Positions 2,128-36,248 of a DNA stretch of 39,884 nt are shown piece after piece. Each line of letters opens with the position of its first letter. Positions within the stretch are counted from its first letter, which is position 1. A program made the position numbers and the translations under genes. The notes under the pieces are model-generated. The model ran no database searches, was not told where the DNA came from, and worked only from the letters and a program-made list of their open reading frames with translations. Location: IMG/VR virus record IMGVR_UViG_3300009610_000054, positions 1 to 39,884 of that record; one strand, written 5' to 3'. The stretch is from a virus.

Positions 2128-4124
2128 TGCCCTCACAACCCTTTTACGATTACGACGGCTCGTTCTTCCGTGGGATGAAATCCGACACGGACCCCGCTCA
2201 GTTGCCCCTCGGGTATTACTGGTGCGGTGAGAACGTGATCAACGTCGGCGGTATGCCGGGCTGTCGCCCCGGCTATCGATGCGTCACCGAACTCCCGGAC
2301 GGTAAGCTTCAAGGCGGCACTCTTTTTCGTCCCCAGTTTGGGGTGGAGCAGATTGTGGTCTGCATCTCTGGCGTGCTCTACGTCTCGGGCTGGCCCTTTC
2401 TCTCGTTTAAACAGATTCCCGGGGTCCTGATGTCTCCTTCGGCGAAGCAGGTATTCTGGTGTCAGACCGTTCAATCCGCCCGCCGAAAAACGACTGACTT
2501 TGCGTCGGCCATCGAGGTAATCGACCCGCGCAACGTGTTGATCATCCAAGACGGCGGCGAGACTGCCCCCGCATACTACGATGGGTCTCAGTCCGGCCAC
2601 ATCCGCGACAACGCATTCGAAACGCCGGTGGGCGGGCCGATGGCGTGGGTGGGCGACCGCCTATGGGTCGCGCATCGAAATTTTGTTCGCGCCAGCGATC
2701 CTGCCAATCCATTTTCTTTTCGTGAGGATACATATCTCGGCGGCATTAGCGCGTTTGCGTTCAAGTCGGAAGTGACCGGTCTTGCGGTGACTCCGTCATC
2801 CGACACTCCGAACTTGATTGTGTTCACGCAGAACGAAGCGGAGTTGATCAAGGCATATATTCGCGACCGTGATTCATGGCCGACGACCACGAACATGCAG
2901 GCGGAAGCTTTCAAAATTGGGACGCCGTCGCATAAGTCCATCGTCTCTCATTATGGTCGCCTCTCGTGGTTCAGTTCCGCTGGTGGCGTCGTGATGCTCG
3001 ATGCGGCGCAGGCGAGTATGATTACGTCTCGCTTGCCGATTCGCGACAACGAGATGATGGTCAGCAAGGCGCGCCTCGGGGAAGACCTTACCGCGGTTGC
3101 AGGCGCAGCGTTCGGCTCTTACATGCTCATGAGCGTGCCCGCTGAGGACACGTTCAACAAGCACACATGGGTGCTTAACAACGCCAGCTTGGAAACGATC
3201 AACGATGACTCCGGCCCCTCGTGGGCGAGCTACTGGACCGGGACTCGCCCGGTCGAGTGGGTGTATGGGAACATCGTCGGTCAGGATCGAATTTTTCATG
3301 TGTCCACTGACAAGGACGACAAGAATCGTCTGTGGGAAGCTTTTCGTCCAGATCGATTGGACAACGGATGCCCGATCACATGGTTCGTGGAGACGCGCGG
3401 ATATTTTGGTCAGAGTTCGCAGACCAAACCTCCCGGGGAGATGTGCAAGTTCGGGTGGGCGGAAGTTGCGCTCGTCGGCATCGAAGAAGATTTGGACCTC
3501 GGCGCGTTCTACGCTGGCGGTTTGCGCGGGGCCTACAAAAATATTCTCGCGAAGCGGTTCAACGTGGAGCGCGGTAACCTTGTGCCCGAGCACGAGATCA
3601 CGGCGGAGACCGAAATCTTTGCGTTTAAACCTCAGACTCGCGTGGCCCGCACTGAAGAAGCCCGGCAGAAATCTGACGAGAGCGGTTCATGTCCTGTGGA
3701 ATCTTCGAACAATGAAGATATCGATGAAAGCTTTCAGTTACTCATCGTGGGTCACGGTCCAGCGGCCATCCGATGGATTCGCGCCTTCTCTACGCATGAG
3801 CAGGTGGACACAAATGGTTCCAACGAGGCGTGCCAGAACGAAACCGGCTACAACGGCGTCCGATTCGATGGGGCCGGAGTCAAGGGCGAAGACCGCGATG
3901 GGCTCGTGACCGAGATGGAAGCGAAAGAGATTGTTATCTACACCGCGAACAAGACCGTCTCTATCACACAAGAAAATATCACGTCCGTGGGAGTTGGATA
4001 CGGGGAGAGCGTGGTGTCGCAGGATGCGGCAGATCGAGTTGCTGAGCGAGTCGCGCAAAAACGCGCCGAGATTGAACTCTCCGCGCTGCTCCCGAGAATC
4101 CTTGGAATTGGTGAAGCCCTATGA
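2127..4124 (+). CDS. Tail tube/nozzle-like beta-propeller protein (665 aa)
   Basis: A 665-residue, Gly/Trp/Tyr/Asp-rich protein dominated by repeated short beta strands (for example YYWCGENVINVGG, GGMPGCRPGYR, DRLWVAHRN, NLIVFTQNEAELI, SHYGRLSWFSSAGGVVML). This pattern, with an N-terminal 'G...N...GG...CRPG' segment, is typical of the six-bladed propeller that forms the tail nozzle in podoviruses (T7 gp12 relatives; usual size 600-800 residues). The C-terminal approximately 100 residues are charged and end in a helical stretch. It starts in a TAATG overlap with the upstream adaptor-like gene and ends in an ATGA overlap with the downstream gene, so translation is coupled. A GTTTAAAC palindrome lies in the gene at 2405 and 3623. 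Function is inferred from fold-like composition and synteny. Confidence 0.65.
   Translation: MPSQPFYDYDGSFFRGMKSDTDPAQLPLGYYWCGENVINVGGMPGCRPGYRCVTELPDGKLQGGTLFRPQFGVEQIVVCISGVLYVSGWPFLSFKQIPGVLMSPSAKQVFWCQTVQSARRKTTDFASAIEVIDPRNVLIIQDGGETAPAYYDGSQSGHIRDNAFETPVGGPMAWVGDRLWVAHRNFVRASDPANPFSFREDTYLGGISAFAFKSEVTGLAVTPSSDTPNLIVFTQNEAELIKAYIRDRDSWPTTTNMQAEAFKIGTPSHKSIVSHYGRLSWFSSAGGVVMLDAAQASMITSRLPIRDNEMMVSKARLGEDLTAVAGAAFGSYMLMSVPAEDTFNKHTWVLNNASLETINDDSGPSWASYWTGTRPVEWVYGNIVGQDRIFHVSTDKDDKNRLWEAFRPDRLDNGCPITWFVETRGYFGQSSQTKPPGEMCKFGWAEVALVGIEEDLDLGAFYAGGLRGAYKNILAKRFNVERGNLVPEHEITAETEIFAFKPQTRVARTEEARQKSDESGSCPVESSNNEDIDESFQLLIVGHGPAAIRWIRAFSTHEQVDTNGSNEACQNETGYNGVRFDGAGVKGEDRDGLVTEMEAKEIVIYTANKTVSITQENITSVGVGYGESVVSQDAADRVAERVAQKRAEIELSALLPRILGIGEAL
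2405..2412. repeat. GTTTAAAC palindrome, first of ten copies
   Basis: This 8-bp perfect palindrome begins at 2405, 3623, 10449, 14620, 20303, 24032, 26763, 29695, 36297 and 38891. About 0.4 copies would be expected by base composition at 55 % GC. Most copies are inside genes (often TTT-AAA for Phe-Lys). The 26763 copy lies between the -35 and -10 boxes of a promoter and the 36297 copy lies upstream of a gene start. Every copy is preceded by C or T. Confidence 0.85.
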
Positions 4125-4747
4125 ACTCTGTAATCGAAACTATTTTTGCTCGTCGTCCTCCGATTGAGTATGTGTCGCCCGCTGCGTGCGAGGTGATTCT
4201 GTCCGGCAGTGGACTTCTGTCCCTCATTCTGCCGGTGCTCAATCCGTTTGGTCGCATCCGGCCAGTCGGCAACGTGATTGTGCTCGGGGAGGGTGCAGGT
4301 CCTTTTTCGTTGAACTGGGAAACTGAACCCGGCGAGGACCCACCGGTCATCTGCTATAACATTTATCAGGTGGTGGGCGGAGAATTGATCCTCGTCGCTG
4401 AATGTGTTACGCCTCCGCCCGGTGGAGGTGGAGTCCCGCTGCCGCCCGGCTCTCCCGAAGGTGGCGATACATATGTTGTCACTCCGATCACGACCGAGGG
4501 CGAAGGTCCGCCGAGTAACCCGGTTACAACTCCCGTCATTCCGCCCGTGGACCCGTGCAGTTCGAATGAAGGCACCGACACAACGTGCGACTATGGCTCG
4601 ACCGGCACGCAGTATCGAATCAAGAATTTCAACTCCGCTCTCTTTGATATCACGGACTGCGGTTTGTTCTGGACGAACTGCGTCAACTGCGAAATTTCCG
4701 GTAGTGACCCTCCCCCGGGGATTAACTTTGCTGAAGCGGTTGAGTGA
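4121..4747 (+). CDS. Tail-associated protein with Fn3-like segment (208 aa), first part of a TGA-split frame
   Basis: A 208-residue product starting in an ATGA overlap with the propeller gene. The middle (about residues 55-145) reads like a fibronectin type III-like beta sandwich (FSLNWETEPGEDPPVICYNIYQ ... YVVTPITTEGEGPPSNPV), interrupted by Gly/Pro-rich turns. The last third is Cys-rich (CSSNEGTDTTCDYG, DCGLFWTNCVNC). Fn3/Ig-like modules are common decorations of phage tail proteins. The frame stops at TGA 4745-4747, but the same frame then continues open to 5080 with convincing protein sequence, so this may be only the N-terminal two thirds of a 319-residue protein. Confidence 0.65.
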   Translation: MNSVIETIFARRPPIEYVSPAACEVILSGSGLLSLILPVLNPFGRIRPVGNVIVLGEGAGPFSLNWETEPGEDPPVICYNIYQVVGGELILVAECVTPPPGGGGVPLPPGSPEGGDTYVVTPITTEGEGPPSNPVTTPVIPPVDPCSSNEGTDTTCDYGSTGTQYRIKNFNSALFDITDCGLFWTNCVNCEISGSDPPPGINFAEAVE

Positions 4748-4762
4748 TCCGGGACGTGGCCT

Positions 4763-5080
4763 GTGAAAGTCAACGACGGACATTTTATAGATCAGGAATT
4801 TGAACCCGATCCGAGTTGCGGCGATTGCTTTCCCGGCTCGTGCCCCGGATGCGTGATTCCGCCCCCGCACAAGTTGCACGGGTTCTGCATCAGTTCGGCG
4901 CTCGTCACGTCTGGTGCCGCCAACGAAACTGGATGCGGTTGGTCCTTCTCGATCACCGGCTCGTTTGGTGAGAATGTTTGGACCGGCACGAAGACCAAAG
5001 GTGAGGGTCCAGTAGGTAAATATTTCAAGGTTTCAGGCTGCTCGCCCGGCCCCGATTGCGTGGAAGTTGAGGCGTATTAA
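4763..5080 (+). CDS. Cys-rich beta protein (105 aa from GTG), probably the continuation of the preceding frame
   Basis: The only available start is GTG 4763, giving 105 residues rich in Cys, Gly and Pro (PSCGDCFPGSCPGC near the N-terminus; a beta-sandwich-like GWSFSITGSFGENVWTG segment). The frame is the same as the upstream gene: between TGA 4745-4747 and the GTG the codons read SGTWP without another stop. If the TGA is read through (for example as Trp), the joint reads ...AEAVE-X-SGTWPVKVNDG..., which looks natural. No Shine-Dalgarno or AT-rich start context precedes the GTG, unlike the other genes here. It is therefore more likely a C-terminal extension or a gene broken by one nonsense change than an independent gene. 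Confidence 0.55.
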   Translation: MKVNDGHFIDQEFEPDPSCGDCFPGSCPGCVIPPPHKLHGFCISSALVTSGAANETGCGWSFSITGSFGENVWTGTKTKGEGPVGKYFKVSGCSPGPDCVEVEAY

Positions 5081-12000: not shown

Positions 12001-15000
12001 GGACCTGATCAACATGCTTTTCAATTTCCGATTGCCGGATACTGCCCGGGTGCAGAAGGGCAAGCTGCCCCTTAACATCGCCGGTCAGGATGTCAGCGAA
12101 GCCACAAAGCCGGGCCGCACTGCCATCCCGATTATTCCTCGTGGATCGTTCGAGGGCGCGGAAGCAGCACGTCAAGGAATTGAAGGTCGTCCGATCAAAG
12201 AGGTCAATCCTCTGCGTCAACAGATTGAAGCCGCCGCGCAAGCCAAGGGCGTGCCTATGCCGGAATTTCTGGAAGCAATCCAACGGCTCAATCTGGAGAA
12301 CATCAAAGAGGTTCAGATCGCCCCGGAGGTGCCGGAGTTTCGCGGTAATACTCTCACGCTGTCCGCTGGATTCCAGCCACCCAAGACGGCGAAGCAGGCG
12401 GAAGAACTGGTGAAGTCGGTCGCCAAGATGACACCCAAAGAATTCGACAAGTGGGCGCATGAGACGCCAGATGGTTTGACGGAAGCAGCATATCAAACTG
12501 GATTAAATGCCCCCAGCAAAGAGTTCGTTCAGTTTTTGAACATCGCGGCAGAGTCGTTCGGCAAGCGGGCCTTGGACTTGATCTCGACCAATCCCGAGGA
12601 AGGGATGATCCTCGCCGCACAGCAGCAGTTTTTCAATGAGGCATGGCAAGCCGCCACAGGCGAAGGCTCTGCGGGATACTCTCTCCGTAAAGAGAAGCCC
12701 GGTTATCAACCTAAGTTTCCAGTAAATGTAAATACCTCTGAGACTAATTTACAAAAGAAAGTTCTTGACTCGGCTCCTGAAATTTCAGATGATGGGGGTA
12801 ATATGAGCACCCAACTACAGCCGAAGAAGGCTGCGAAGAAAGAGTTCAAGATGAAGCCTGCACAGGCCGGATTCAGCAAAGCATGGATTCTGCCGGACGG
12901 CACACCCGTGCAATTGGGCGGCAAGTGGCATCACGAATTCATTAACGAGTCTCCCGAACTTCGCAGCAAGTATGGTCTGCCGATGGACGAGAACACCGAG
13001 CAGAACCGGATTGAAGCCTTGAAAGAGGGATTCGTCCAGGTCAATTGGGCCGACGCATCCGGGCGCATTACCATCGAAGCGCGTGAAAAGGACTGGCCCA
13101 AGCAGCGGGAAGCGGTTCGCTCTTTTGTGGAGCGGAACGCAGACAAGATCGACTGGATCAAAGTCTACCTTTTCGATGACACGGTCCAGAGCATCAAGAA
13201 TCAGGATGAAGCGAAAGTTTTCACCTTGGATGACATCGAGAAACCGGCAATGGTTCCGTTCCTCGATTTGGACACGAAGCGCGCCACTGGGGATGCCTCG
13301 GATCGGTTATTTCAAAAAGCGGTCGAGAGCACAAATAAGGCTCCGGCTGAGTCTTTCAAAAAAGGTCTGACGACGGTGGATGGTGAAGGCTACTGGGTTG
13401 ACCCCAAGGGCGAGTTCATCCAAGCCCCTGATTCACATGAGATGACTGCTTACGAGATCAACAATGCTCGCAAGCTTGGTCTGGATTTGGACAAGCTTCA
13501 GCGCGAGATGGATAAGATCGGCAGTGAAGCCGTCTACCACGCGATGAATGCCAAGAAGTATCTGCGCGCCTACAACGTGGGTCCTGATATCCTCGCGGTC
13601 GAAGGCTTGGGAAAATGGGAAGACATCCCGCGCACACAGCGCGAGAAGATGGAAGATGCAGCGGTTGAGTCCGGGCGTATCCTGTATTTCAACGACCGGA
13701 AGATTGATTCTACTGACGTGGTTGACCTCGGCGCATCATTCCAGCCTAAGAAGGTGGCTGAGGACTACGCCAAGAAGGCGGGCATCAAATACACCCCCAG
13801 CACCACTCGTTCAGAGGTGCCAGTGGAGACTGCAAAGAAGTTAGCGGATTTTTACGAAGCGGCCTCACATAGCCCAGAGGACGCGGAGGTGAAAAAGTCC
13901 TATGAGGCGTTGGCCAAAGAGACGCTGGCCCAATACAGCGCCATGAAGGATGCGGGCTATACCATCGAACCGTGGACCGGCGAGGGCGAGCCCTACAAGT
14001 CTAGCGCCGACATGGTCAAAGACGTGACCGAGAACAAGCACCTTTTCTTCCGCCGCACTGAGGACAGCTTTGGCAAAGAGGAAACGGATCGCAGCCGCAA
14101 GAACCCGATGCTCGAACCGTCCGGCATCGATGATCTGCTCGTGAACGATGTGTTCCGCGCAGTGCATGACTTTTTCGGACACGCCAAAGAGGGATTGCAA
14201 TTCGGACCCAAGGGCGGGTTCAATGCGTGGAAGGTCCACTCGGAAATGTATTCGCCAGATGCCCAAGGGGCATTAGCTGCGGAGACTCTCGCACAAAACT
14301 TTTGGGTGAACTTCGGCAAGCAGATTCGCCGCACGGATGGCAGCATCCCGGCGAAGGGCGACAAGGATTACGTCGCACTGCCGGATCGCCAATTTGCCGA
14401 GCAGAAGAACCTCGTGATCCCGGATGAATTACTGGATGAAGTGCGCGCGCAGTTCCAACCCCGTCGCGCGGATGAGGACCTGTTCGGTGCAAAGCCGACC
14501 TATACCAAGTCCGAGGTATCGAAGATGACGCGCGCGGAATTGAAGGAAGCGTTCCCCGAGGCAATTATCCCCAAGCAGAAGGACGAAGCCATTCCTTCGG
14601 ATATCACTGGCTCGCCTCTGTTTAAACGTGCTGGTAATGAGGAAGCCGCCGTCAAAGCTTTTGCAGATGGACTCGTGAAGTTCGCTCGCGAGAATCGGAA
14701 CGATCCCGTTTTCAAAGCCGGTGTCGAATGGTATGACGAATTCACGCCCATGCTGAAAAAGGAATTCGGAGAGCATGCAGACCTTTTCGCCGAGTTACTT
14801 GCGGCTACATCCCCACAAACTGGCGTAGAGACCAATTTCGCCTACGCGGTGGACGCCATCGAGAGCCTTAAGGCGGGCCGATTCAACAAGATCATCCCCA
14901 AGTTCAACGAAGGCTTGGAAAAGATTGCGACTGGCGCATGGGAAAAGTGGTATAACAAGGAACTGCCCAACATTCCCGAGCCGCCTAAAAATCCTACGCC

Positions 15001-17772: not shown

Positions 17773-18018
17773 ATGAAAAAACTAATACTGATCATGTTGT
17801 TAATGACGGGATGTGTGGCGAGACCTCAGACCCGGACTATGACTTGGAAGCCGGACCCCGGGGCCGTTGCTTGGGACGTTTTCGTCGATGGAACCTTGTT
17901 CCAACGCGTAACTACTCCCCGAGTGATTCTACCAAAGCGGGACATGGACATCAAAGTCGTGGCGGTGGGTCCGACCGGCGAGTGCAGTCCGCCCGCCATA
18001 ATCATCATTCGCCACTAA
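17773..18018 (+). CDS. Small lipoprotein (81 aa)
   Basis: The 81-residue product starts MKKLILIMLLMTGC: two Lys, a short hydrophobic helix and the lipobox LMTGC with Cys14, so signal peptidase II cleavage and lipid anchoring are predicted. The mature part (about 67 residues) is beta-rich and resembles a small Ig/Fn3-like unit ('AVAWDVFVDGTLFQRV ... DIKVVAVGPTGECSPP'). In phages such a protein may act as an outer-membrane spanin (Rz1 type), a superinfection-exclusion factor or an envelope modifier. An Rz1 role is less likely because mature Rz1 is usually Pro-rich and sits with an Rz gene, which is not seen. It is the last gene of the plus-strand unit, directly before a terminator. Confidence 0.7.
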   Translation: MKKLILIMLLMTGCVARPQTRTMTWKPDPGAVAWDVFVDGTLFQRVTTPRVILPKRDMDIKVVAVGPTGECSPPAIIIIRH

Positions 18019-18234
18019 GCAGTTGGCGGCAGAGATCGAGAAGGTCCTTGCCGCCGATTTTTTGTTATAAAAGGAAAAACGCCGATCCCTTTTCGGCGCG
18101 TCTGCGTAACCACAGGTGCAACCCATTGGCACTGGACTATGCCCGCTTCCACAGTGATGCCGGTCCATCGCTTCCCCGCAGTGACAATTTTCGGGGTCGA
18201 TTTCCCAACCGCATCCAGAACAAGTTACTGACAC
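17929..18234 (-). CDS. Small Cys/His-rich zinc-binding protein (101 aa, GTG start)
   Basis: The first 50 residues carry a dense zinc-ligand pattern: CSGCGWEIDPENCHCGE, then HHCGSGHSPVPMGCTCGY. The 'GHSPVPMGC.CGY' signature is familiar from small phage proteins of unknown role. GTG 18234 overlaps the TAA (18225-18227) of the frame that continues the metallophosphoesterase beyond its TAG. After residue about 60 the sequence runs through the minus-strand terminator and antisense to the lipoprotein gene, stopping at 17929. The C-terminal 40 residues may therefore be accidental or translated only from readthrough transcripts. Likely a nucleic-acid- or protein-binding zinc module; the function is unknown. 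Confidence 0.6.
   Translation of the reverse strand: MSVTCSGCGWEIDPENCHCGEAMDRHHCGSGHSPVPMGCTCGYADAPKRDRRFSFYNKKSAARTFSISAANCLVANDDYGGRTALAGRTHRHDFDVHVPLW
18025..18063 (+). terminator. Rho-independent terminator for the plus-strand unit
   Basis: GGCGGC (18025-18030) pairs with GCCGCC (18050-18055), and the 19-base loop contains an inner AAGGTCCTT. A run of six T follows (18058-18063). It lies 7 bases after the lipoprotein stop. Confidence 0.75.
18075..18098 (-). terminator. Rho-independent terminator for the minus-strand unit
   Basis: On the minus strand CGCCGA (18098-18093) and TCGGCG (18085-18080) form a 6-bp stem with a 7-base loop, followed by TTTTT (18079-18075). It faces the plus-strand terminator and closes the leftward transcription unit. 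It lies within the last part of the small Cys-rich frame listed next. Confidence 0.65.
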
Positions 18235-18371
18235 TCGAATCCCTCGGGGAGGGTGTAAGAATGAGGTGTCTCATCGCCACGATCCAGCCGCAGATCATAC
18301 GTTGCGGAGCGGACAAATTTCGGATGCATCAGACAGAACTTCTGGCAAGGATGCGAGGCATTGAAATACTA
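18225..18371 (-). other. In-frame continuation of the metallophosphoesterase beyond a TAG codon
   Basis: After the TAG at 18371-18369 the same frame stays open for 47 codons to TAA 18227-18225. It reads YFNASHPCQKFCLMHPKF and then RSATYDLRLDRGDE. As remembered from phage metallophosphoesterases, the C-terminus after 'NGAFPGTD.YAL' normally has a '..QKFFLVHP..G.T.RYDL.L' type strand, which this matches. The extension ends in an overlap with the next gene, the spacing normal for this operon, whereas stopping at the TAG leaves an atypical 134-base gap. Readthrough, suppression or a recent nonsense change are all possible. Confidence 0.6.
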
Positions 18372-19508
18372 ACCCAATGCGTAACCGTCGATCCCGGGGA
18401 ACGCGCCATTGACAATCACCTCGCCGCGTGAGTGCGGGATCGAGATGGGGCGATGGAGGTGGCCAACGAGGTAATAATCCGGGGCCGACTTGCCATTGCG
18501 CGTGAAAAGCTGTGAGGTGGTGCTCACCATGCGACCCATGGAGTGCGATGGGATGCCGAGCGCCTTGTCGCCGCCTCGGAGGTTATCGCCGTGGCCGCAG
18601 TAGAAGGTGTAGCCTTGCACATCGAACACTGCGAACGGCTGCCAGTCCAGAGTCCACTTGATGCGGGGGATGTCCCGGGTGAGCGCCTCGACAAACATAT
18701 AGAGCAGCATGTCGTAATTGCTGTTGCGATTTTTCGAGGGCATGCGGTGTTGATTCTGCCAGCGGGTGTGATTACCAACGCAACCATATAAACGCAAGGG
18801 CGCGAACACCGACAAGCTGCGAAGGAACTGCGCGATGGCGTGACCGCCCGCGTAGAACTGAGTCAGGATCGTGTTGGGCTGGCCCGACTCCGCGCTATGT
18901 GACAAAGCGCCATCCAGCATATCGCCGAGAATCGGAACGACGAGTTCAGAGATTTGCGTGGTGGTGTGATCCTTCAGGATCGAGCCCACCGATCTCTCCA
19001 ACCGTTGCAGACGGCGGAGAAAAATTTCGAAGTTGTAGTTCCCCATCCCGAGGGTCTGGTCGGGCTTCACGACCGCGCCAATGTGCGTATCAGAAAATGC
19101 CAGCACAGCAGATTGGGGAGATGAATGTGGAGTCTTCAGCGCGCAGTCTTTGACGATAGCCGGGGCGGGGTTATAAGAACGCGGTGCCATGTCCAGCACG
19201 TGCTCGCAGAGCATCTCCACGGCGGTTTGGGACTCCTGCGCTTTTTCGAGGGCTCGCCCCAATTCGGCAGCCCGTTTGCGCCAGAACTCTGCCCGGGCGG
19301 GCGCGTCCGAAGGGACTGGAGCGTCAGCTAGAGCGTCAGCTAGGGACAACTGGACCTTTTGGTCCAGCGGGAGGTGGTCCAGCTTGATCTCCACCGCTTT
19401 CGTGGTCCGGCCCAGCTTCTCCGCGATCTGGCGAGCCGTTAGGCCCGCCGTTTTCAATTTCTTCAGTTCCGTGAGTTCCTGCTCCGTCCAAGTTTTGCGA
19501 TTTGTCAT
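18369..19508 (-). CDS. HTH domain fused to calcineurin-like metallophosphoesterase (379 aa to TAG)
   Basis: From ATG 19508 the N-terminus (residues 5-47, 'TWTEQELTELKKLKTAGLTARQIAEKLGRTTKAVEIKLD') is a Myb/GcrA-like helix-turn-helix. A helical linker follows. A binuclear metallophosphoesterase core starts near residue 135, with motifs D140-x-H142, G195-D196, G245-N-H247, GHGD at 305-308 and GHLH at 349-352, the full metal-ligand set. A phosphodiesterase or DNA-repair-nuclease activity is expected from the family; the HTH suggests action at DNA. An upstream in-frame ATG at 19709 is rejected because it lies deep in the preceding gene and adds non-protein-like sequence. The start lies inside the upstream frame (173-base overlap). 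A 12-bp tandem duplication (19319-19342) encodes LADA twice. The frame ends at TAG but continues plausibly to 18225. Confidence 0.85.
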   Translation of the reverse strand: MTNRKTWTEQELTELKKLKTAGLTARQIAEKLGRTTKAVEIKLDHLPLDQKVQLSLADALADAPVPSDAPARAEFWRKRAAELGRALEKAQESQTAVEMLCEHVLDMAPRSYNPAPAIVKDCALKTPHSSPQSAVLAFSDTHIGAVVKPDQTLGMGNYNFEIFLRRLQRLERSVGSILKDHTTTQISELVVPILGDMLDGALSHSAESGQPNTILTQFYAGGHAIAQFLRSLSVFAPLRLYGCVGNHTRWQNQHRMPSKNRNSNYDMLLYMFVEALTRDIPRIKWTLDWQPFAVFDVQGYTFYCGHGDNLRGGDKALGIPSHSMGRMVSTTSQLFTRNGKSAPDYYLVGHLHRPISIPHSRGEVIVNGAFPGIDGYALG

Positions 19509-21372: not shown

Positions 21373-23580
21373 CTATGTTAGTGGTTGGTTTGTTAACGGT
21401 GGAATTGTTTGTGGCGGAGTCGCCGGAGAGCCGAAGCGTTCGAACACCCACACGCGGCATTTCATTTCGTTGGTCTCCGAGGTGCATTTGACAAGGCCCT
21501 CGCGCTGGATCATCTCCAGATACCGGGTGACCTGCTCAAGCTTCATGGACCTCATGATCTGCTCGTTGAATGGGTGACTGTGGAGACACCGTAGCAGAGC
21601 AGTCGCGGTCCCGCGCCAACGGGTGGCAGCGGTTTCCGTCTTGAAAAAGGTTTCCAAATACTCCAGAAGCAGTTCTTTGAACGGCCCGCACTTGCTGCTC
21701 TGGTGGGCGGAGTCAAGCAGGGATTCGTCGTGGTATGACTTGTATCCGAAGCGCACATCGCGCTCGACAAAGTCGGGGATTTCCACGTCATAAAGCCAGC
21801 GGCCAAAATACGGCAACTCGTTCTCGATGATCTTCTCCAGTTCTTCTCGGGGCGGAAGCTTCATCAGGCCCGGCGCGCAGCGAAGCAGGTTGGACTTGTC
21901 TTTCGATGAGTTATCCATGGGGCCGACGATGCGGATCGAACTTTGATCCAGATTGTAAGAGCCATGAATTCTGACGGGATGGACGATGGTCACGGGCACT
22001 TCGAATTTCTTATGGTAGAGGAATTCCTGATTGGCTGCAACTTTTTTCCAGCTAGATTGGAAGCGTGCTTGCGCGGCTGGGTTGTCAGTGGAGGAATCGT
22101 CGTCGGAGCACCACAGTGGCACCTCGTGAAACTCCGAGGTGAAGTGCGCGTTCTCCAGAAGGTATCGCGACGCGTCCACCCATCCGCCCATCAACTTGCC
22201 CCATATGCCGCGCCCGGTCATCGTCTTGCCCTTTCCCGCTTCGCCCAACAGGAACACGTTAGTGCCGGAGCGTGCCACCTCATCGATGGCGCACATATAC
22301 ATATGCTTGCCCCACGCGAGGTAATACCACATCTGGAGCGGCGTGATGAGCAGCGTCTCCCAGTGCGCCGAGAGGAACGGAAAATTTCCGTGCGGTCCCA
22401 TCTTCTGCGTCCCGGTCGCGGGCTTGATCGCGCGATTGCGATAGGTGTTGATGATGCGGTTGCCCTGATAGATGATCGGCCCGGAGGGACGATAGCAGAA
22501 CGGCGCGCCACCAATGACGCGGTTCTTCTTGTGAATGTGCGACAGCGCGGAGCGCAGTGTGGATTTGCCGGTTTTGTCTTTCGTCATGCTTAAGCCGCAG
22601 TCGTTTTCCAGATAGTTGTTCATCTCGGCAGGCGGAACGCTATCCCAATAAGTATCCATCCACTGCCAGTAGTTTTTCTTGTCGTAATAGATGTTCGAGG
22701 TCGCCTTGGAGATCGAGGTCTCGGTGTAGGCTTGGACGAATTCCTTGCCGAGCAGAGATTCGTCACCCCATGGGTAAAAGGTTTTGTCCCGGTGCGCGGA
22801 GAAGGTGACCATGCCTTCTTCCTTCACAATGGCGGACAGCGGCGACGTAGACGCGGGAATCCAAAACGAAGGCCCCTGCGAGTCCACCGCGAAGTTGACC
22901 GGCCAGTTGAAGTTGTCGAATTTTTTCCTGAGCCCTGCTTCCACCACATCAAGCGGAATCTTGACCGTGTCGGAAGATTTGAATCGGAACGAGCCCGCCG
23001 TCTTGACGAAAAAGGCTTGAAGCTTCTCGTGCGGGATCGGCCCGGCCCCGGTGCTCTCCCAAACTGCGCCGTTGCATAGCAGACGCGACGCCTCAGTGAG
23101 CGCGCCCTCGTCGAGCCCGGGCAGCAGTTCGGCTTTCAACCACTTTGCGGCAGCCCGCTGAAAATATTCGTAGAAGTCACAGGTGTCGATCAGTAGCTTC
23201 TGCTCGAACAACCAAACGAGGCGGACCTTGCCGCCGAGAGATGTTTCGATCCACGATGGCTTGATGACCATCTGTTCTATTTGCTGACGCACATACTCGA
23301 TTGCAATTTTTACGTCGAAGTCGAGCGCGATGCCGTGACTGAAGCGAGGCGGGTTATCCTCTTTAGAAATCCGTTGGTTGGGATTGCATCCCTCCAGCGG
23401 AGTGTAGAAATTCCATTTCGTGTTAAAGTTCCGGTAGAACAATTGACGACTGTCCTTGTCGTGGCGTATTTGGGCTGTGATCTGCGCGGACTGCTCGGGA
23501 GAAGGTGAGAACTCCCAAGGGTTGTATGGAACCACCGATTGCGTCAGAACGAAGCCGTTATCAACTGCGTAGAACGACAT
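21373..23580 (-). CDS. Primase-helicase: AEP-like primase domain plus SF3-like ATPase (735 aa)
   Basis: The N-terminal part (1-300) has the archaeo-eukaryotic primase pattern: 'GIALDFDV' with D87 and D89 as metal ligands, followed by 'IETSLGGKVRLVWLFE' (about 111-126). The C-terminal part carries a P-loop 'GEAGKGKT' near 445-452 and the acidic 'LWCSDDDSS' about 45 residues later as a likely Walker B region, then a segment ending in 'RIHGSYNLDQSSIRIVGP'. This layout fits phage primase-helicases that prime and unwind the replication fork. A winged-helix-like tail follows (about 640-720). It lies directly downstream of DNA polymerase and upstream of sigma in one unit. The stop is two bases before the sigma start. 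The helicase class (SF3 rather than RecA-like) is inferred from motif spacing. Confidence 0.75.
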   Translation of the reverse strand: MSFYAVDNGFVLTQSVVPYNPWEFSPSPEQSAQITAQIRHDKDSRQLFYRNFNTKWNFYTPLEGCNPNQRISKEDNPPRFSHGIALDFDVKIAIEYVRQQIEQMVIKPSWIETSLGGKVRLVWLFEQKLLIDTCDFYEYFQRAAAKWLKAELLPGLDEGALTEASRLLCNGAVWESTGAGPIPHEKLQAFFVKTAGSFRFKSSDTVKIPLDVVEAGLRKKFDNFNWPVNFAVDSQGPSFWIPASTSPLSAIVKEEGMVTFSAHRDKTFYPWGDESLLGKEFVQAYTETSISKATSNIYYDKKNYWQWMDTYWDSVPPAEMNNYLENDCGLSMTKDKTGKSTLRSALSHIHKKNRVIGGAPFCYRPSGPIIYQGNRIINTYRNRAIKPATGTQKMGPHGNFPFLSAHWETLLITPLQMWYYLAWGKHMYMCAIDEVARSGTNVFLLGEAGKGKTMTGRGIWGKLMGGWVDASRYLLENAHFTSEFHEVPLWCSDDDSSTDNPAAQARFQSSWKKVAANQEFLYHKKFEVPVTIVHPVRIHGSYNLDQSSIRIVGPMDNSSKDKSNLLRCAPGLMKLPPREELEKIIENELPYFGRWLYDVEIPDFVERDVRFGYKSYHDESLLDSAHQSSKCGPFKELLLEYLETFFKTETAATRWRGTATALLRCLHSHPFNEQIMRSMKLEQVTRYLEMIQREGLVKCTSETNEMKCRVWVFERFGSPATPPQTIPPLTNQPLT

Positions 23581-25722: not shown

Positions 25723-26103
25723 CTAACGCGTTGCACCAAGAGTCACGCCGGTGGTTTGCCGCCACACCTTCGATTGGATGATGCGAGCAACCTGCCGATT
25801 GATAATGGGCTTGAGTTTTTCGATCAAAGCCCCGGTAAGAAAGTCATCCACCGGCTCTAGGACCCCGGATGCCGCAACGTCCTTCATTGAGTCGGTGCGC
25901 AGGCCCCGGACAAATGATTCGACATCGGCTTCCACCTCATCGATGAAGTCCTGACCCACTCGGGTGAACTTCGGGCGCAGCCGTTGCGCGCAGTTCAGCG
26001 CGTGCTGCTTGATGGCGGACTTGTTCAGGAACCGCAGAGAGGCGAGGTCCAACCCATCCATGATGTCGCCGGTCACCGGCTTGTCGAGAACAGAACTATT
26101 CAT
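25723..26103 (-). CDS. Small protein with possible histone-like helix pair (126 aa)
   Basis: From ATG 26103 (overlapping the SprT gene end by eight bases) the product begins MNSSVLDKPVTGDIMDG. The middle reads 'NKSAIKQHALNCAQRL' then 'KFTRVGQDFIDEVEADVESFVRGLR', that is, a short helix, an R-V/S-x-x loop and a long amphipathic helix. This recalls the first half of a histone fold, where 'RVS..A...L......I' begins helix 2. The C-terminal part has a basic helical segment ('EKLKPIINRQVARIIQSKVW'). A DNA-binding or architectural role beside the polymerase gene is possible, but the fold is only suggested by pattern; no family is certain. An upstream in-frame start at 26136 lies inside SprT and is rejected. 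Confidence 0.65.
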   Translation of the reverse strand: MNSSVLDKPVTGDIMDGLDLASLRFLNKSAIKQHALNCAQRLRPKFTRVGQDFIDEVEADVESFVRGLRTDSMKDVAASGVLEPVDDFLTGALIEKLKPIINRQVARIIQSKVWRQTTGVTLGATR

Positions 26104-26737
26104 CGTCGTCACCTTCCAGTTCCTCGGGAATTTCATACTCCATGGGCTTCTTCGTCACCGGAGATAAAGGCGCGCCGAGATCGTTGATCCACTTTCGCGT
26201 AACGCGGCAGACGTAGCCGGACTTTTTGCACTCGCACTTCACGAGGCGCGTGGTTTGCTTTTTGGTCGGGCGCTTGTTCCCGTCCAACTTGGCGTGCGGA
26301 AACGGGCCGAGTTTCTCGTGCCAGTCTTTGCACATCTCCACCAATTCCTTGCTGGCGTAGGTTGAAGTCAACTTGCCTTCGAGCAGGATCGCGCGGGCGC
26401 ACTTGCCGAAAACCTTGTTGTGCCCTTCCTCGTTGCCCACGGTGGCGTGAATCAATTCGTGGATCAACACAGGCAGGATGCCTTGGGGATCAGACGGCTT
26501 GTCGAGCCACGGCGTGATGAAAATTTGCGCGACCTTATCGGACGCAGCGGTTTTGCACCATGCTTGGCCAAGAACCCGGCCTTTGGCACTCAAAGCTTTG
26601 TGAGAGGGCCAGCCGCAGGAGACGCGGACTTCCGGGACGGTGTAACCCTTCTCGGTAAAGAAGGGACGCATGAGAGAGACGGCTGCAAGCAGCCATCCCT
26701 CCCGAGTTGTATGTTTTAATTTGCTATCTTGTTTCAT
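26096..26737 (-). CDS. SprT-like zinc metalloprotease (213 aa)
   Basis: The active site 'LIHELIHATVGNEEGHNKVF' contains H93-E94-x-x-H97 and a third ligand H106, the SprT/Spartan layout (HExxH plus a downstream His). The C-terminal 'VKCECKKSGYVCRV' region (about 167-180) looks like a partial zinc ribbon, also usual in the family. Cellular SprT/Spartan proteins degrade proteins crosslinked to DNA; phage versions occur in replication modules and probably clear protein blocks or target host factors. The acidic tail is GDDDE. It is the first gene after a strong sigma-70-type promoter, with a leader of only a few bases. It overlaps the next gene by eight bases. Confidence 0.85.
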   Translation of the reverse strand: MKQDSKLKHTTREGWLLAAVSLMRPFFTEKGYTVPEVRVSCGWPSHKALSAKGRVLGQAWCKTAASDKVAQIFITPWLDKPSDPQGILPVLIHELIHATVGNEEGHNKVFGKCARAILLEGKLTSTYASKELVEMCKDWHEKLGPFPHAKLDGNKRPTKKQTTRLVKCECKKSGYVCRVTRKWINDLGAPLSPVTKKPMEYEIPEELEGDDDE

Positions 26738-34897: not shown

Positions 34898-35063
34898 TGA
34901 ACAGTTCGCCTTTCTTTTTGACCTGACGCTGGAGTTCCTCCAGCACGAGAGAAATTTCGTTAAGGTGCCCGAGGTAGCTGAACCGCTTCGTTTTCGGGAT
35001 CGCGTCGAACATCTCGGTCAGAGCCGCGTTCGCCGTATCAACTCTTTCTTTGGTAATGATCAT
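34878..35063 (-). CDS. Small helical protein (61 aa)
   Basis: From ATG 35063 the frame MIITKERVDTANAALTEMF... is helical with a charged, coiled-coil-like C-terminal half ('LNEISLVLEELQRQVKKKGELF'). The upstream in-frame start at 35234 adds residues that belong to other genes' frames and is rejected. It overlaps its upstream neighbour by ATGA. No family recognised. Confidence 0.6.
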   Translation of the reverse strand: MIITKERVDTANAALTEMFDAIPKTKRFSYLGHLNEISLVLEELQRQVKKKGELFNEKNPS

Positions 35064-35206
35064 TGCAGGATGCCAATCTCTTTTTTGTAGAACGCCGGAA
35101 TCCCAGCCGTCGCACCGCGCACTATCTTCGATGCAAAGTGTTTGAACAATTCGTCCTTGATATAGTCCGCTTCCTCTTTCAGAATATCGGCTGCCGCTTC
35201 CTTCAT
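35060..35206 (-). CDS. Small helical protein (48 aa)
   Basis: From ATG 35206 the frame MKEAAADILKEEADYIKDEL... is a charged helix followed by a Gly-containing turn and 'PAFYKKEIGILQ'. The start overlaps the RNA-ligase stop by ATGA and its own stop overlaps the next ATG. An in-frame earlier start would invade the ligase gene. Unknown function. Confidence 0.55.
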   Translation of the reverse strand: MKEAAADILKEEADYIKDELFKHFASKIVRGATAGIPAFYKKEIGILQ

Positions 35207-35958
35207 GATTGGGCCAATGTCCTGCGCGTGCCATTGATCAGCGCGCGTTCTGTCAGGTGTTGAATGGCCTTGCGCCAGCGCGCCTCTGAGGTGAGTTCGG
35301 CAATGAGGCGTTCTTCGATGTCCGCCTTCGTTGGATTGGATTTCTTCCACTCGCCGACGTGCTTCTCTTTGAAAGCCGGGCTCACAAATTTGCCGACGAG
35401 GATGTGCTTGTCCGGGCCAAACTTGTCGTAGTTCTTCACCACGACGCCTTCGATCTTACAACCACCGAGAAAACTTTCGCGCCCGAAAAATACATCGAGT
35501 TGCGAAACCTCAACTTCGGAACCTGCGCCAGAGTAGAAGCAGGGCGTGCAGTCCATCCCTAGGCGCTCCGCCTCAGTTTGCTTCGTGGCTGGGTCGAGAT
35601 AGTGCTCGCCCTCACTGATCATCACGTCGAACAGCACGAGGAAGTTGCGCGGGGTGCGGCCATACGCCAAACAGTTGTGCTTGGGCTTGCTGAGATACTC
35701 GGCACGGTAGGTCCATCCCGGGATCAGGCCATGTGATTGATGCATGATTTGCACTGCGGTGATGGCATTGTTGAACATCTTCTCGGGACCACCGGCGTGA
35801 ATTTGCTGGCCCTTGGAGCGAAACTCAAGCTGGCCATCGAACAGGCCAAATGAGAACTGCGAGCCGTCAACTTTTTCTTCGATGATCACTGCGCCGGAAA
35901 ATAAATCCGCGATGAAGCGATGACCAAGTGCGTAGATGCTAGGATAGGATGGGATCAT
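35203..35958 (-). CDS. RNA ligase (251 aa)
   Basis: Nucleotidyltransferase motifs appear in order: motif I 'EEKVDGSQ' with Lys29 as the adenylated nucleophile, 'EFRSKG' near 47-53, motif III 'YRAEYL' near 85, motif IIIa 'FLVLFDVM' near 108, motif IV 'EGVVVKNY' near 170 and motif V 'LVGKFVS' near 186. Length and motifs fit the Rnl2-like RNA ligase family, which seals nicked or cleaved RNA; T4-type phages use such ligases to repair tRNAs cut by host defences. No polynucleotide kinase/phosphatase or tRNA gene is visible nearby. ATG 35958 is preferred over a TTG nine bases upstream because it gives the usual ATGA overlap. Confidence 0.85.
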   Translation of the reverse strand: MIPSYPSIYALGHRFIADLFSGAVIIEEKVDGSQFSFGLFDGQLEFRSKGQQIHAGGPEKMFNNAITAVQIMHQSHGLIPGWTYRAEYLSKPKHNCLAYGRTPRNFLVLFDVMISEGEHYLDPATKQTEAERLGMDCTPCFYSGAGSEVEVSQLDVFFGRESFLGGCKIEGVVVKNYDKFGPDKHILVGKFVSPAFKEKHVGEWKKSNPTKADIEERLIAELTSEARWRKAIQHLTERALINGTRRTLAQS

Positions 35959-36248
35959 ATTAGGCAATATTGAGTTGGATACTGGAAATTAGATGGTAAC
36001 GAGCCGAGCCTCGGAAAGATTTCGAGCACCTCGTTTTCGGATCGCGCGGAGCACGCCGGGCCAAATGTAACCGCAGCGCGCTTGCCGAAGTGCGATGAAT
36101 CCATTTGAAGACACTCATAGCAGACAAACCCGGTGATGCCTTCTTCAGCGGCTTTGCGGGCGAGTTGGTCCTGCGCCTCGGGGCTGAACAAACCCCAAAA
36201 CTCGATCTTGCTCACCTGCTTAACTTCGCCGCCGATCATATTCTGCAT
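35955..36248 (-). CDS. Hypothetical protein (97 aa)
   Basis: From ATG 36248 the product starts MQNMIGGEVKQVSKIEFWG. It contains helices ('AQDQLARKAAEEG') and one Cys pair (VCYECLQMDSSHF), perhaps a partial metal site. The start codon closes leader motif copy F, and a GTTTAAAC palindrome lies 49 bases upstream, so this gene may head a transcription unit containing the RNA ligase. An upstream in-frame start at 36335 would cross the intergenic control region and is rejected. Confidence 0.6.
   Translation of the reverse strand: MQNMIGGEVKQVSKIEFWGLFSPEAQDQLARKAAEEGITGFVCYECLQMDSSHFGKRAAVTFGPACSARSENEVLEIFPRLGSLPSNFQYPTQYCLI

Follow-up and report, generated by a model that had tools for sequence, protein, structure and literature searches.

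The window analyzed here is a viral contig of 39,884 bases (IMG/VR virus record IMGVR_UViG_3300009610_000054, positions 1 to 39,884). A metallophosphoesterase gene on its minus strand begins with ATG at position 19508, runs for 379 residues and meets an in-frame TAG at positions 18371 to 18369 (open reading frame [ORF], 18369 to 19508). Translation of positions 18225 to 19508 confirmed that the frame stays open beyond the TAG for another 47 codons (YFNASHPCQKFCLMHPKF...ATYDLRLDRGD...FECQ) and is closed by TAA at 18227 to 18225, so that the tail with its stop codon occupies positions 18225 to 18368. If the TAG ends the gene, a gap of 134 bases is left before the GTG at 18234 that starts the next minus-strand ORF (17929 to 18234), and the extended frame overlaps that ORF by 10 bases. 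The interruption, the open stretch and this spacing had all been pointed out in the preliminary description, and all three were found to be correct. By our estimate, 47 open codons after a stop would arise by chance about 1 time in 10, which taken alone is weak evidence. The open frame is more than chance because the relatives of the gene are homologous across the tail.

The 379-residue ORF matched PF00149 with an E value of 4e-5 (24.6 bits, above the cutoff of 21.5) and the exonuclease family phrog_284 with an E value of 8.4e-37, covering positions 76 to 364 of the 398 in the profile. The phrog_284 match breaks off at profile position 364, which is the position of the TAG, and the annotated ORF is without a complete C terminus. 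The N-terminal segment is helix-turn-helix/GcrA-like and matched PF07750 (GcrA; 3.5e-5, below the cutoff). All of the canonical metal-ligand motifs (DTH, GDxxDG, GNH, GH, and GHLH) are present in the calcineurin-like phosphoesterase domain, and every one of them lies N-terminal of the TAG. In an alignment of 24 sequences, D140, H142, D196, N246, H247, and H306 were invariant and H350 was nearly so.

The fold neighbors of the protein were the PolD subunit DP1 and phage proteins that carry the annotation DNA polymerase II small subunit or metallophosphatase, with modest global TM-scores of 0.4 to 0.6. The surrounding genes belong to DNA metabolism and encode a DNA polymerase, a helicase, an exonuclease, a RuvC-like protein, and an RNA ligase. 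From these sequence features, the enzyme is likely to be a 3'-5' exonuclease or a DNA repair phosphoesterase. Among annotated phages, no match was found at the DNA level. The domain and the metal-ligand motifs are common to this enzyme and the phage calcineurin-like phosphoesterases (phrog_284, PF00149, and the PolD DP1 fold), and the C-terminal beta hairpin of those proteins is also present once the tail is included. The window copy differs from the phrog_284/PF00149 phosphoesterases in the TAG that precedes the last hairpin and in the additional GcrA/helix-turn-helix-like segment at the N terminus.

The tail alone matched four of five relatives, with E values from 1e-14 to 7e-23 and no internal stop. 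A profile scan of viral contigs yielded 25 relatives, all of which read on past the TAG column and end 42 to 50 residues later. The codon at this column is Glu in 17 of the 25 (GAA in 11 and GAG in 6) and Ser, Gly, or Asn in the remainder; none has a stop there. The closest relative, at 74% identity, has GAG. Measured against this relative, the pN/pS ratio was 0.23 for the tail and 0.17 for the catalytic body. The tail value falls inside the range of 0.04 to 0.29 obtained from 46-codon windows of the body, and long-standing decay of the tail was rejected on this ground. The tail has thus been kept as protein by purifying selection until very recently. Since the tail is under purifying selection, the stop would have to be either very young or not real.

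An AlphaFold2 model built from 24 sequences (pLDDT, 78.5; an earlier model from 6 sequences was poor, with a pLDDT of 54) places the tail, at pLDDT values of about 77 to 93, within the enzyme domain. Its two predicted strands, residues 388 to 395 and 399 to 407, form a beta hairpin of that domain. Truncation at the TAG would, according to this model, delete a folded hairpin yet spare the metal ligands. The segment that would be lost includes conserved residues. The suggestion that the segment after the TAG resembles the usual C terminus of phage metallophosphoesterases is thus borne out by its matches to relatives, by their uniform continuation and by its predicted folding with the enzyme domain.

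The same observations bear on the idea that a shorter form of the protein, with its end at the TAG, is genuine in this family and that the downstream homology belongs to a separate small gene. No point in favor of a shorter form was found. That none of the 25 retrieved relatives ends at the TAG refutes it for those 25. In addition, the strands of the tail follow on in order from those of the enzyme fold, and every relative encodes enzyme and tail in a single frame. We regard this as scarcely credible. Amber readthrough or suppression had been listed first among three options in the preliminary description; if programmed, it would mean that one protein is made in two lengths or that the TAG is read as an amino acid. 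In its favor, the frame after the TAG is conserved coding sequence. The conservation of the stop itself that programmed readthrough would be expected to show is lacking among the 25 relatives. TAG moreover serves as a normal terminator for other genes of the contig: it closes the gene at 25723 to 26136 exactly where relatives end and the gene at 21373 to 23580 within a few residues of their ends. It is also the stop codon of the metallophosphoesterase gene itself in 3 of the 25 relatives. Genome-wide reassignment of TAG was rejected on the basis of this stop usage and of the gene ends of the relatives. With a hand-made gene list, coding density under table 11 was 92%, and the in-frame TAG proved to be the only one in the window. 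The proposed search for a suppressor tRNA was equally fruitless. ARAGORN called no tRNA within the window, which may be an incomplete contig, and no tRNA with a CUA anticodon was called in the contigs of four relatives, where one tRNA had no called anticodon. The UAG is followed by U, and the predicted folding of the RNA beyond it was not more stable than that of shuffled sequences (z = +0.77), so that no stimulatory hairpin was detected.

Comparison with phages that use an alternative code leads in the same direction. Code 15 phages, in which TAG encodes Gln (PMC10607447, PMC9523058, PMC11210395), likewise carry in-frame TAG codons inside conserved phage genes. In the alternative-code phage phAss-1, TAG occurs in 41 ORFs and is accompanied by three suppressor tRNA genes (PMC10607447), and code 15 phages have a median coding capacity near 67 to 69% before reannotation with the right code (PMC11210395). 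The window differs from code 15 phages in having one such TAG rather than dozens, a normal density under table 11, TAG as a terminator and no suppressor tRNA seen. Readthrough or suppression is therefore considered highly improbable. A variant of it, in which a genuine lineage-specific amber codon is partly read through to give a short and a full-length phosphoesterase and, together with a gene split by TGA elsewhere in the window, reflects occasional suppression of solitary stop codons without code reassignment, seems slightly more improbable still. The claim of recoding does not stand, and the finding is an ordinary one. The other two options, a recent nonsense mutation and a base-calling error, both fit the data.

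When the ORFs of relatives were compared with the window, two further genes were found to be broken, a structural gene (4121 to 5080) and the RNA ligase gene (PF09414; minus strand, 35060 to 35967). A scan with the structural gene retrieved five contigs, all from other metagenomes, with 99.9% identity to parts of the first 16 kb of the window, and the comparison of the window with these contigs covers about 15.4 kb. The structural gene, on the plus strand, is split by an in-frame TGA at 4745 to 4747, and the codon is TGG in all four of the other assemblies that cover it. A collagen-like tail fiber frame (plus strand, 1 to 240) has a one-base deletion near position 97; all four of the other assemblies there have the base, and the frame is open in one of them (L047). 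Two disabling lesions are thus private to the window within about 15.4 kb. By comparison with contig G003, the RNA ligase gene is shifted by one base near 35225, and no near-identical contig over that site was found; this frameshift fits the lesion rate seen in the covered 15.4 kb. Likewise, two DNA patterns and six peptides retrieved no near-identical contig over the TAG at 18369, nor was one found between 16144 and 39884 at the sites probed (18 to 36 kb). Near-identical contigs were retrieved for only the first 16 kb or so, although G003 keeps the same gene order along almost all of the window.

Within the 15.4 kb, the window carries five private substitutions (at 3505, 4728, 4747, 4789, and 11226) in addition to one deletion. 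Three of them, at 4728, 4747, and 4789, fall inside 62 bp (P of about 0.0005), a cluster that has the look of one bad stretch. When private substitutions were pooled over six sequences, 14 of 17 were nonsynonymous, including a second nonsense change (contig L048, position 1502). This proportion is close to the roughly 75% expected in the absence of selection and is at odds with the roughly 36% seen in the divergence of the metallophosphoesterase between phages (P of about 1e-4). The private differences bear the stamp of consensus errors or of individual genomes that were never filtered by selection. At the private rate of the window, about 0.6 nonsense codons would be expected per contig, and the two seen are not excessive (P = 0.12).

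Two unusual residues lie in the tail within 59 bases of the TAG, Val399 at a site that is Gly in 25 of 25 relatives and Cys392 at a site that is mostly aromatic. Odd residues at conserved columns numbered 2 of 11 in the tail versus 3 of 112, a difference that is marginal (Fisher P = 0.06; P values of 0.05 to 0.06). In a BLOSUM test, the window tail was within the range of the body, and G002 is likewise variable in the tail stretch that holds the odd residues. Cys392 and Val399 near the TAG may at most hint at a bad stretch.

On this evidence, the TAG would be a single isolated lesion, without function, in a phage metallophosphoesterase gene that is intact in all other respects. A consensus error of the contig, introduced in sequencing or assembly, is its most likely origin, and we assign this a probability of roughly 0.7. 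An error of this kind is favored because the window has private lesions of the same type that independently assembled contigs of this phage lack. The error at 18369 is inferred from those other lesions, with the TAG itself outside the part of the window that near-identical contigs cover, and its membership in the same error class is to be read accordingly. In the virus, the gene would most likely be uninterrupted, as it is in the relatives, and encode one protein of about 427 residues whose frame closes shortly after the start of the next gene. The TAG resembles the private nonsense codons and frameshifts that occur as errors in phage contigs assembled from metagenomes, such as those of the window and L048, which are single-base lesions missing from other assemblies; it differs from them in that it is known from this one assembly. 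A literature search on errors in viral contigs found no report.

A real, recent nonsense mutation in the sampled phage is the other reading to be weighed; the TAG would then be a minor or dead allele in a low-coverage assembly or would mark a strain with a truncated enzyme. One base change is enough to convert the closest relative's GAG (Glu) to TAG, a stop that arose very recently would be consistent with the purifying selection seen on the tail, and the metal-ligand motifs all precede the TAG. Against this, private lesions are already proven for virion genes of the contig and would disable those genes if they were real, which makes errors the commoner class here. Moreover, the missing segment contains conserved residues and is predicted with confidence to form a hairpin of the enzyme domain, so its loss should do harm. 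We therefore hold a real mutation to be possible but rather unlikely, and a consensus error remains the preferred explanation.

The locus provides a worked example of how real stop codon recoding can be distinguished from errors of the consensus sequence in viral metagenomes. Comparison with near-identical contigs exposed private, unselected lesions at a rate sufficient for a nonsense codon. Two of the other assemblies also showed private irregularities. L048 has a private Trp-to-TAG change of its own at window position 1502, six bases from another private change. In L049, about 59 bases (window positions 13160 to 13218) are duplicated where the assembly has a junction, close to private differences, which is likely an assembly fault of that contig.
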